Assembly: GCF_000786105.1 (NCBI RefSeq)
Contig: NZ_JTEV01000022.1
Span: 1-36,691 of the forward strand
Length of the DNA stretch: 36,691 bases
Origin: Bdellovibrio sp. ArHS
GTDB taxonomy: Bacteria; Bdellovibrionota; Bdellovibrionia; Bdellovibrionales; Bdellovibrionaceae
Direction of reading: 5' to 3'
Shown here: positions 3,042 through 36,636 of the stretch, piece by piece
Layout: each line of letters opens with the position of its first letter
Numbering within the stretch: position 1 is the first letter of the stretch
Program-made: the position numbers and the translations under genes
The notes under the pieces: generated by a model
What the model saw: the letters and a program-made list of their open reading frames with translations, nothing else
What the model was told of the DNA's origin: nothing
The model's database searches: none

Positions 3042-3626
3042 ATGAAAAGTATCTGTGTTTTTTGTGGTTCAAGCCCTGGTGCACGTCCAGAGTATATCGC
3101 CATGGCAAAATTGCTTGGCACGACCCTGGCGCAAAAAGATATCACGCTAATCTATGGCGGTGCCCAAGTGGGCTTGATGGGCGCGGTCGCTGATGCAGTT
3201 ATGGCCGCCGGCGGAAAAGCCATTGGCGTGATTCCGCAGTTGCTGATGACTAAAGAAGTCGCGCATGCGCGTTTGACTGAGCTTCGGGTTGTGGATTCCA
3301 TGCACTCTCGCAAGGCTTTGATGTCGGAACTGTCAGACGCTTTTATCGCTCTTCCTGGGGGCTTTGGAACCTTTGAAGAACTTTTTGAAATCACCACGTG
3401 GGCGCAACTGGGACTTCATCAAAAACCCATTGGGGTTCTGGATGTGGCAGGCTTCTACACACCTTTAAAAGGTCTGGTCGAAGCTGGAATGCACGAACAA
3501 TTCATTCGGGAAGAATATCGCAGCCTGATGGTCTTTGCGGATTCACCGGAAGAAATGCTCGAGAAGTTTGCGCACTACGTTCCGCAACCTCTTCCCAAAT
3601 GGATCAACTCTTCGTCACAGACTTAA
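3042..3626 (+). CDS. LOG family protein (putative nucleoside 5'-monophosphate phosphoribohydrolase)
   Basis: LOG-family enzymes hydrolyse N6-modified AMP or AMP-like nucleotides to base and ribose 5-phosphate; in bacteria the physiological substrate is often uncertain. The 194-residue protein has a Rossmann-type start ICVFCGSSPG, then GGAQVGLMG, and the family signature PGGFGTFEE at about residues 105-113. The ATG at 3042 has AGAGGG at 3031-3036; the upstream TTG at 3027 falls in the terminator T-run and is rejected. The gene lies directly behind the prpB terminator, so it either has its own promoter inside the terminator region or is made by read-through. It converges with sugE, 23 bp apart. 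Confidence 0.88.
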   Translation: MKSICVFCGSSPGARPEYIAMAKLLGTTLAQKDITLIYGGAQVGLMGAVADAVMAAGGKAIGVIPQLLMTKEVAHARLTELRVVDSMHSRKALMSELSDAFIALPGGFGTFEELFEITTWAQLGLHQKPIGVLDVAGFYTPLKGLVEAGMHEQFIREEYRSLMVFADSPEEMLEKFAHYVPQPLPKWINSSSQT

Positions 3627-3649
3627 AAGCGCGCGGGGGCTCTTACCCT

Positions 3650-3985
3650 TCACTGCGCCCCTGAGGTCACTTTAAGACCGATGATAGACACCAACAAAAG
3701 CGCCAGGAAAAAAAGTCGCCCTGGCGTCACCGCTTCTTTGAAAAGAATGATACCCAAGATGGCTGCGCCCAAAGCGCCGATGCCGACCCAGATTCCGTAA
3801 GCGGTGCCGATGGGCAGCACATTCGCGGCTTTGGCCAACAAAAACATACTGCCAGCCAACGTTAGCAAGGTGAAGATACTGGGGCCTAGTTTCGTAAATC
3901 CGGCGGTGTATTTAAGACCGATCGACCAACCCACTTCTAAAATGCCTGCGATCACTAAAAGAATCCATGCTTTTGTGTTAGACAT
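3650..3985 (-). CDS. sugE: Guanidinium exporter, SMR family (SugE/Gdx)
   Basis: This 111-residue protein has four predicted transmembrane helices, the SMR layout, with the conserved membrane Glu at about residue 17 in AGILEVGW. Features typical of the SugE/Gdx subgroup rather than EmrE are VGWSIGLKYTAGF, LPIGTAYGIWVGIGALGAA and SIIGLKV at the end. Gdx proteins export guanidinium in exchange for protons at the inner membrane. The assignment is strongly supported by the guanidine-III riboswitch immediately upstream. The ATG at 3985 follows GGAAAGGAG (3993-4001). It is transcribed alone, away from the lipoate ligase gene. Confidence 0.93.
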   Translation of the reverse strand: MSNTKAWILLVIAGILEVGWSIGLKYTAGFTKLGPSIFTLLTLAGSMFLLAKAANVLPIGTAYGIWVGIGALGAAILGIILFKEAVTPGRLFFLALLLVSIIGLKVTSGAQ

Positions 3986-32077: not shown

Positions 32078-32542
32078 ATGCGCTTTTTTATAGGGCTGGC
32101 CATTTTGTTTACAGGATTGCAAAGCATCGCTTACCCGGGCATCGATCAATGCTGGGATATCAATAACAAACCTGTTTCAATCCAGCAGACAGTGGCGCTT
32201 GGACAGGCGGCCGAGAGTAATATTATCAATGGACTGCCAACAATTCTTTTACATCCGCAAATGATGGGGCAATATCCTCACGATGTTCAGCAATTCATTG
32301 TCGCCCATGAATGCGCCCACCATCGCCAGGGTCACGTCGTCAGAGTGCACTTCGGCGGCTCCCTCCCCATCACTTCTGAATTTGACGCTGACTGCATGGC
32401 CATTAAAACTCTCAAAGATCTGGGACTTTTAAACGCCTTCGTTTTAAGAAACATCCAGACCTTTTTAAGTTCGCTGCACGCGGATGCCACTCATCCTGGC
32501 GGAACTCATCGGGCCCAATACGCCCAACAGTGCGCTCAATAA
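32078..32542 (+). CDS. Small secreted M48-like zinc metalloprotease
   Basis: A 154-residue protein with a signal peptide (about 1-18, ending IAYP region). The zinc motif HECAHH is at residues 77-82 (HExxH) and the third ligand motif EFDADC (E-x-x-A-D type) at about 101-106, both as in M48 peptidases. M48 enzymes are usually at least twice this size and membrane-bound, so this is a minimal soluble form. It contains cysteines at about 25, 79, 106 and near the C-terminus. GGGAGAC precedes the ATG. Substrates unknown. Confidence 0.78.
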
Positions 32543-34330: not shown

Positions 34331-34352
34331 CTAATCGGCGAGGTTTAACTAT

Positions 34353-36068
34353 ATGATAAATCGGCTTCAGACATCACGTATGTGGATTCCCCTGCTTTTG
34401 ACTCTGCAGGGTTTTAACGCCATCGCCGCGGATTTAAATCCCACGATCGCGAACAAACATCTTTTGCCGAAGGCCGTGCAAGTTCAAGTCACCCAACGGG
34501 GGATGAAGTACTTTGACAATCGTCTCAGCGATCTTTTAGGAAACCTGGGTGTGAAGCTGGATGAAGGTTATTTCCCAGCTATGAGCTACACTTTTGAAAA
34601 ATCGATCAACCCGGATGATTTCAAGGATTCCAATCCCGAAGCAGTTAAGATGTATGCGCAAGTTCGCCAGTTGCTGACGCAATGGCTGGTGGGCTTTTCG
34701 ATGAACGATCACCGCCCCGCTATCGAGATCGGGGAATCAGGTTATATTGCCGACTTCTCGCGTTTTGGTTTGGTCACCGACGAAGCCCTGATGCAGTCCC
34801 TGGGTAAACGTGATGGAGCCGTTTTGGCCATTGAACTTGAAGTCAAAAAACTTTCTATCGCCACTCATTCCGTCAAAGCTTGGGACATGAACAATGAGTT
34901 CCTGGGACAGATCGGCCTGGAGGATGTTTCGATCACAGCGGGTGACGAAAGCACACCTTTAAAAATTCGCCTCCCCTTTTATATTCGCTCCAATGCCAAT
35001 GGCGGTTTGGATTTCGAGGCTTTAGAGATCGATAACAATCTTTCACAGACGCCCATTGCCTATCAATACAAGAAGTTGATCGTTCCTCAGATTGCGGTTG
35101 AAATTAACGGCAAAAAATTCCAGTTAAATACGACGCAACTTGATGCCATGTTGATGGAACAAGCTCCTGTGATCCTGCAGAAGGTGCGCGAAAGCTTGGG
35201 CGATTTTGCCCGCAAACAGCTTCCTGAACTTTTGAATCAAAAGGCGAAAGAGTTTTTAAGCGGCTCTTTAGAGCAAGTGCAAGACATGGTGCCGCCGGGC
35301 ACGGACAGAATGGACCTACGCCCTAACTTCAAATGGGGCTTGAAACTTCAGAATATCAATCTGAAAAAATCTCTAAATATCGAATTAACGGCGTATGTAG
35401 AGGACCCGATCAACGCACAAAGTCGCCCCTTGGCCAGCAACGGTCCGCGCGGTCTACCGCAGATCAATCATTTATCACAGGATAAATACGATTTGGCGCT
35501 GACATTGGACCGTGCGCTTATCAACCGTGTCTTGCAACTTAGTTTTGAACGCCGAAATTTCGAAACAATCCGTCAGTCCAATGGCACTGTTTTGCGATTG
35601 ATGGCGGCTCCGACCATCGACTATGTAAAAACTCCTGCTGGCGAAGTTTTAAAACCACAAGAAGCCTTCGTGAAATTACATGTTTCCGTAGAGAACGAAC
35701 CAAACCATTTTGCCCTGAAAGATAAAATCGTAATCGATTTCGACATCGTTGCAAAATTACGCCAGTTGAGCGATAAGAGCGGCATGCAGTTGCAACTGCA
35801 CTCCATCGATGTGGATAGCTTGGTGATGGATAGTAAATACTTATCTTTGGTGGGTAAGTTGATGCCAGGCAAAGTCCGCGAAGGCGTGAAAGATAAACTG
35901 CGTGAACAAAGTGCCGGTTGGAAAACGACAGACGAAGTGATCCCGGGAAGCTTGCCACTTCCACCTGTCGTTATGGGAATTAAGTTGGATATCAATCGCG
36001 TTACAGTGGACCCGAACGGTCACATTGTTATGTACTTAGATTACGCGAAAACAGGAGCGAAACAATGA
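34353..36068 (+). CDS. BPI/LBP-like (TULIP) lipid-binding protein, secreted
   Basis: A 571-residue exported protein with a signal peptide (about 1-25, ending AIA). The N-terminal part begins VQVTQRGMKYFDNRLSDLL, which resembles the start of animal bactericidal/permeability-increasing protein (V-R-I-T-Q-K-G-L-D-Y). The C-terminal end, PGSLPLPPVVMGIKLDINRV followed by hydrophobic alternation VTVDPNGHIVMYLDYA, resembles the BPI C-terminal strand (GFPLPTP ... LLFGADVVY). The middle YDLALTLDRALINRVLQLSF also fits the second barrel. BPI and LBP bind lipopolysaccharide and lipids. The role is inference; no search was run. It overlaps the next gene by 4 bp (ATGA). Confidence 0.55.
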   Translation: MINRLQTSRMWIPLLLTLQGFNAIAADLNPTIANKHLLPKAVQVQVTQRGMKYFDNRLSDLLGNLGVKLDEGYFPAMSYTFEKSINPDDFKDSNPEAVKMYAQVRQLLTQWLVGFSMNDHRPAIEIGESGYIADFSRFGLVTDEALMQSLGKRDGAVLAIELEVKKLSIATHSVKAWDMNNEFLGQIGLEDVSITAGDESTPLKIRLPFYIRSNANGGLDFEALEIDNNLSQTPIAYQYKKLIVPQIAVEINGKKFQLNTTQLDAMLMEQAPVILQKVRESLGDFARKQLPELLNQKAKEFLSGSLEQVQDMVPPGTDRMDLRPNFKWGLKLQNINLKKSLNIELTAYVEDPINAQSRPLASNGPRGLPQINHLSQDKYDLALTLDRALINRVLQLSFERRNFETIRQSNGTVLRLMAAPTIDYVKTPAGEVLKPQEAFVKLHVSVENEPNHFALKDKIVIDFDIVAKLRQLSDKSGMQLQLHSIDVDSLVMDSKYLSLVGKLMPGKVREGVKDKLREQSAGWKTTDEVIPGSLPLPPVVMGIKLDINRVTVDPNGHIVMYLDYAKTGAKQ

Positions 36069-36580
36069 AGTCTCTAAAACTCATCATCATCAATGCGCTA
36101 ACACTTATCATCGGTTTGGGTTTGATGAGCGGTTCCGTTTCTCAAAGAAATGCCGAAGCCGCTCGCTTTGAAACCATTCCGTCACTTCAAGTGAATCGCC
36201 TGGGCAATTTGCGAGGCCAATATCTGACGGTGCTTTATGCCGTCGGTTCCCGCCCGTTCATTTCAACGGATTCATCACAAATCACGATTTCGCAAGTAAA
36301 AGAATCCCGCACGGTTTATATCTCGGCGGACTCAATGACTTTGCCGTCTGTGCAAGTTGAAAAGGAAGGATTCCGTCCTTCTTATAACATCATTGTTTTC
36401 GTCGTCTCTCCGCAGCCGAACTATAGCTGGGTGAACGCCGATGGCTCTGCTCCTCAAGGTATGAGCATCACAAGCAATCGCATGAGCTCCTTGATCAATG
36501 CGATCAACAAGACAGATGTAGATAGCTTTATCAGCTCGCAAGGAGATTCGGCCACTTTGCAGGTTAACTTGGTCAAATAA
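36065..36580 (+). CDS. Secreted protein of unknown function, coupled to the BPI-like gene
   Basis: A 171-residue protein with an N-terminal hydrophobic segment (about 5-25) that acts as signal peptide or anchor. The rest is beta-rich (for example QYLTVLYAVGSRPFISTDSSQ, split in strands), with no cysteines and no motif recognised. Its ATG overlaps the preceding stop (ATGA, 36065-36068), so the two products are made together and may interact. A strong terminator follows, closing a two-gene operon. Confidence 0.72.
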   Translation: MKSLKLIIINALTLIIGLGLMSGSVSQRNAEAARFETIPSLQVNRLGNLRGQYLTVLYAVGSRPFISTDSSQITISQVKESRTVYISADSMTLPSVQVEKEGFRPSYNIIVFVVSPQPNYSWVNADGSAPQGMSITSNRMSSLINAINKTDVDSFISSQGDSATLQVNLVK

Positions 36581-36603: not shown

Positions 36604-36636
36604 AAAGGTGATGGTCGCAGGCCATCACCTTTTTTT
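36604..36636 (+). terminator. Terminator after the BPI-like operon
   Basis: AAAGGTGATGG (36604-36614) pairs perfectly with CCATCACCTTT (36622-36632), continuing into a T-run to 36636. The remaining 55 bases to the window end show no feature. Confidence 0.92.

Follow-up and report, generated by a model that had tools for sequence, protein, structure and literature searches.

The tubular lipid-binding (TULIP) fold has a tube-like lipid-binding pocket as a common property, as set out in two published accounts (PMC5507252; PMC6791001), and the TULIPs of diderm bacteria have been placed in the intermembrane space (PMC6791001). Bacterial TULIPs with two barrels are already known. DUF4403 (PF14356) was predicted to be a bacterial, pseudodimeric, BPI-like TULIP, with ~66% of its proteins predicted to be lipoproteins, and the P47/OrfX proteins, for which structures have been solved, have barrels that lie side by side, not head to head (Levine, 2019; PMC6791001). 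YceB/DUF1439, also an envelope TULIP of Gram-negative bacteria, is a single short barrel and usually a lipoprotein. The animal proteins BPI, LBP and CETP (PF01273 and PF02886) have two TULIP barrels per chain in about 450–550 residues, with a strand-helix start at the N-terminus and a strand pair at the C-terminus. Here we describe a two-gene unit on contig C22 of a Bdellovibrio genome of 3.54 Mb; the whole contig, 36,691 bases, was analyzed and is called the window below. The first gene encodes a large protein predicted to share the layout of the animal proteins, from a family that none of the DUF4403 or P47/OrfX models match. The second encodes a small secreted-type protein. To our knowledge, no partner gene has been described for bacterial BPI-like TULIPs.

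The evidence for the fold comes from structure prediction. The AlphaFold2 model of the large protein, built on an alignment of 11 sequences, has a predicted local distance difference test score (pLDDT) of 73.9 and a predicted template modeling score (pTM) of 0.62, and its C-terminal half is the best part. A Foldseek search of PDB places BPI first (1bp1, E 8.3e-13; 1ewf, E 8.1e-12), followed by CETP (1.6e-11), LBP (6.7e-11) and P47 (2.8e-8), all with a Foldseek probability of 1.00. The first chain that is not a TULIP appears only at E 0.016 with a probability of 0.11, and YceB/DUF1439 is absent among the matches returned. VIA aligns residues 39–567 of the model to residues 2–456 of BPI (Z 14.6, 394 residues, root-mean-square deviation 5.9), with LBP at Z 13.7 and CETP at Z 11.7. 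Each half also finds TULIPs separately. The N half matches single-barrel TULIPs, namely Takeout, BBP, Der p 7 and SPLUNC1 (model 44–308) as well as JHBP, and the C half (model 340–567) matches the OrfX2 TULIP domain. The large protein is predicted to have a BPI-type TULIP fold, a single chain with two barrels placed end to end. An earlier note, made by eye from the DNA sequence, had proposed this fold; the comparison put TULIPs on top rather than a barrel-less structure or another family at high probability, and the idea survived. We found no solved structure for the family.

No search that we tried detected sequence homology of the large protein to BPI. Phmmer and hmmsearch of PDB, with the single protein and with 17-row and 32-row profiles, returned no BPI, LBP or CETP; the sole match, an mRNA-decapping enzyme at E 0.17, is taken as chance. 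Pfam and NCBIfam searches with the protein gave no BPI-type match, and hmmscan of 32 family members against Pfam found neither the BPI models (PF01273/PF02886) nor DUF4403. The two BPI models were also run over 15 genomes with E values up to 10, and none of their matches fall at genes of this family. PF14356 had no match in the source genome or 59 relatives, where control genomes were silent as well, and across 369 Bdellovibrionota genomes it had none at genes of the family; weak sub-threshold matches occur elsewhere in 4/369. A profile comparison of the N and C halves for internal duplication gave no signal above shuffled columns. The stretches that had suggested BPI to the earlier note (VQVTQRGMKYF, SLPLPPVVMGIKLDINRV and VTVDPNGHIVMYLDYA) are present and their terminal pattern is not a chance one. 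An N-terminal VGVYVSPxGxxYFxxNL and a C-terminal PLPxxxxGIxL...GxLxxYxxY are kept in a 32-member family down to ~20–30% identity. The second barrel has a conserved DRxLINRVLQLSFER helix and the C-terminal strands PLPPxxxGIKL...GHIVMYLDY. The resemblance seen by eye holds for the predicted fold, with BPI the best match of the model, and no sequence search supports it.

Both open reading frames (ORFs) read in the earlier note, of 571 and 171 residues, are present in the window (Table 1) and share four bases (ATGA). By direct sequence reading, a Shine-Dalgarno-like GAGG precedes the TULIP ORF (34340–34343) and an AGGAG precedes the partner ORF (36053–36057). The hairpin that ends the unit was missed by a simple terminator scan and was detected by folding. 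Both proteins carry Sec-type N-termini and lack a lipobox. Neither contains any cysteine, so neither is a lipoprotein. The partner gene lies −4 to +54 bases from the TULIP stop in 51 of the 52 loci where a partner was found, a count that includes a few loci fetched twice from two collections. The coupling spans families f1, f10, f15, f16, f17 and f28, and in most loci the partner is directly behind the TULIP gene, down to 20–30% TULIP identity. The suggestion of a coupled, secreted-type partner is supported, and the pair is conserved across the Bdellovibrionota. Of 67 loci examined, 15 yielded no partner; at least four of them break off at the TULIP gene or close by, and others may truly be without a partner. 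We propose that the two proteins form a physical or functional complex, mainly because their genes are so strictly coupled. The predicted model of the partner (pLDDT 81) is a beta-sandwich that follows a hydrophobic N-terminal helix. Comparison with TssJ/SciN and pilotin-like beta-sandwiches gave as the best VIA match the type VI secretion system lipoprotein SciN (Z 6.3, 98 residues, root-mean-square deviation 4.0), in a range common by chance, and Foldseek gave no match with E <1e-3; no known fold stands clearly above background. In one locus (L116, ~3324–3824; G029:C4:187512–187895), an apparent orphan partner gene adjoins no TULIP gene, and its match contains an in-frame stop. It is maybe a relic left after loss of the TULIP gene.

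The TULIP protein is found once in each of 24/24 Bdellovibrio genomes, at 58–92% identity to the window protein, and the 32-row profile finds the gene in 110/369 Bdellovibrionota genomes, including several families of unestablished lifestyle. We found no relatives on plasmids or viral contigs. In a scan of genome contigs, matches fell only in records consistent with Bdellovibrionota, save one contig of a metagenome-assembled genome labeled 'Streptomyces griseus'. This contig is probably mislabeled, since its gene order (TULIP, partner, amine oxidase, ABC pair) is that of Bdellovibrionota. Several genera of family f16 have two or three tandem TULIP copies (L106, 3838–5529 and 1367–3199; L114, 1640–5343; L108), and in L106 a partner gene sits between two copies. 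Genomes of genus g101 (G209:C6, G135, G250, G296 and others) encode diverged tandem TULIP-like proteins of ~560 and 600–650 residues that match the profile over the middle only (~140–300); some of these genomes hold a separate weak DUF4403 match (L120–L123). TULIPs of genus g90 (L111, G116, G177, G245) are longer (~690–710 residues); they carry an additional insert of about 100 residues or more, and their N and C barrels match separately.

The explanation we favor, and hold to be probable by a modest measure, is that the pair consists of a TULIP lipid carrier with two barrels, located in the periplasm, and a beta-sandwich partner dedicated to it. The Sec system would move the TULIP protein over the inner membrane, and the protein would then carry lipid, in soluble form, in the periplasm of the predator, its barrels holding acyl chains and shuttling lipid between the envelope membranes. 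The small protein, made from the same message, would be its dedicated partner and would probably dock it on a membrane or control its loading. Computation shows the operon, its conservation and coupling, the Sec-type N-termini and the predicted fold; the lipid cargo, the transfer activity, the periplasmic site and the contact between the two proteins are inferred. The presence of the gene in 24/24 Bdellovibrio genomes and in the families of unestablished lifestyle is more in keeping with an envelope role than with that of an optional weapon. Three points weigh against a periplasmic carrier. The operon contains no envelope-lipid gene. The N-barrel is modeled with moderate confidence (pLDDT 45–86 across 10-residue blocks). 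Finally, the gene was not found in 259/369 Bdellovibrionota genomes, some of them incomplete and whole genera included, so diderm life does not depend on it.

Alternatively, the pair may be a predation factor exported into the periplasm or outer membrane of the prey, where the TULIP would extract or deliver prey phospholipid or lipopolysaccharide (LPS) and so seal, permeabilize or harvest the prey envelope. We judge this unlikely, if still credible. Among the predators compiled in PMC11656739 (Table 1), the TULIP gene is present in HD100, kdesi, SSB218315, Tiberius, LBG001, KM01, NC01, SKB1291214, W, ZAP7 and Halobacteriovorax marinus SJ; the Bdellovibrio strains and H. marinus SJ are intraperiplasmic predators. 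It was not found in the epibiotic Pseudobdellovibrio exovorus JSS and Ca. B. qaytius of the same table. The partner was not found in P. exovorus JSS either; Ca. B. qaytius was not searched for it. The epibiotic absence suggests a tie to intraperiplasmic growth, but it is a pattern of a single clade (genus g3) that may reflect one loss, and hence it is a lead only. Numerous further genera of these families keep or lack the genes without a known lifestyle. We do not take predation specificity as the main explanation because the occurrence of the TULIP gene within f17, the family of Halobacteriovorax, is patchy. Both proteins also show Sec-type signals only, and with its neutral to acidic charge the N-barrel runs counter to what BPI needs for binding anionic lipid A. 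Improbable in our view is the bolder proposal of an ancient, Bdellovibrionota-specific lipid-transfer machine, made up of the BPI-fold carrier and its beta-sandwich partner, that would move envelope lipid between prey and predator in intraperiplasmic predators and would have been lost in epibiotic ones.

A rather doubtful alternative is that the TULIP barrels are no longer loaded with lipid and form, with the partner, a structural or protein-binding element, as perhaps in P47/OrfX. The clostridial P47 and OrfX2-OrfX3 proteins are likewise bacterial two-TULIP proteins and appear among the structural matches, and in the OrfX1-OrfX3 complex (8bgm) a TULIP is already known to pair with a small partner. 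However, they match less well (Foldseek E 3e-8 and worse; VIA Z 7.4 vs. 14.6 for BPI), and their genetic setting differs. Structurally, the model comes closest to BPI, LBP and CETP, all of them lipid binders.

The full-length match to BPI could also be taken to mean that the large protein is a true bacterial member of the BPI/LBP family that binds LPS through a cationic N-terminal tip, a function that the earlier note had entertained. BPI has a conserved disulfide in its N-barrel, and in BPI and LBP the cationic tip of the N-barrel contacts lipid A. The window protein cannot form this disulfide, since it has no cysteine, and other listed family members have mostly none and at most two. Its N-barrel has a net charge of −4 and an isoelectric point of 5.5, and N halves in Halobacteriovorax and close relatives reach −17 to −25. 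Thus, with no cysteine, a non-cationic N-barrel and no match to a BPI, LBP or CETP profile (even over the 15 genomes searched at permissive E values), the LPS-binding reading is unsupported and membership in the family is very improbable. The large protein is probably not an LPS-killing protein. As an aside, a neutral lipid A, which would need no cationic tip, is reportedly found in B. bacteriovorus.

Least credible is an unrelated DUF2785 (PF10978) protein: the B. bacteriovorus HD100 orthologue (L007, 1501–3210) scores 53 bits over residues 65–220 with a cut-off of 25, but the window protein reaches 19.4 bits, the model passes only some close orthologues, distant members give no score, and the matched stretch falls within the N-barrel of the TULIP model. 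Since the score is strong in HD100 and fades quickly in its relatives, the Pfam model appears to have been seeded with this one Bdellovibrio sequence, probably wrongly, and public annotation may mislead.

Table 1. Features of the two-gene unit in the window.
Feature	Position	Strand	Basis
Gene for 571-residue protein, predicted two-barrel TULIP (BPI fold)	34353..36068	+	ORF, conservation, AlphaFold2 model with Foldseek/VIA
TULIP Sec-type signal peptide, residues 1–25, likely cleavage AIA|AD, without lipobox cysteine	34353..34427	+	sequence reading; disordered in model, pLDDT <30
Predicted first (N-terminal) barrel, residues ~38–303, BPI-like start AVQVQVTQRGMKYF, long helix 260–302	34464..35261	+	secondary structure of model; alignments to single-barrel TULIPs
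Predicted second (C-terminal) barrel, residues ~326–567	35328..36053	+	pLDDT mostly 80–95; OrfX2 TULIP alignment; conservation
Gene for 171-residue secreted-type partner, predicted beta-sandwich	36065..36580	+	ORF, 4-base overlap, coupling, predicted model
Partner signal peptide or membrane anchor, residues 1–32, likely cleavage AEA|AR	36065..36160	+	sequence reading; single hydrophobic helix 2–34 in model
Intrinsic-terminator-like hairpin and T-run ending the unit	36604..36636 (about)	+	fold −19.1 kcal/mol, z −5.3

Genes outside the unit are partly kept as well. Downstream, in L060 (8300–13713) and L063–L068, is a flavin amine oxidase of the Tat type on the opposite strand, followed in most loci by genes for a 2-oxoglutarate (2OG)-Fe(II) oxygenase and two ABC exporters. 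A GTP cyclohydrolase I gene is often found upstream. We considered and rejected a functional tie to the amine oxidase, 2OG oxygenase and ABC exporters, which are outside the operon and whose order is lost in distant families. Elsewhere in the window (32078–32542, + strand), flanked by genes for a DUF1003 protein and a chemotaxis receptor, is a gene for a 154-residue secreted-type protein with a HECAHH motif like that of a small metallopeptidase and without a Pfam match.

Compared with BPI, LBP and CETP, the window protein differs in being bacterial and encoded with a small partner, and in lacking the disulfide cysteines and the cationic tip. It is like DUF4403 in that both are bacterial, predicted to be secreted into the diderm envelope and BPI-like in layout with two TULIPs per chain, but it has no PF14356 match and is not predicted to be a lipoprotein. 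The earlier note held that such a protein would be new. This is so for the family, which is apparently undescribed; we found no paper on the TULIP-partner family in a literature search that left subscription journals mostly outside. It is not so for bacterial BPI-like pseudodimeric TULIPs as such, given the 2019 prediction of DUF4403 (PMC6791001). The pair would add an apparently undescribed and widespread bacterial family, in a phylum of predators, to the two-barrel TULIP lipid carriers. The family bears on the question of whether two-barrel proteins of the BPI type originated in bacteria. Little is known of how Bdellovibrio deals with lipid where predator and prey meet, and the pair offers two genes that are open to deletion and purification.
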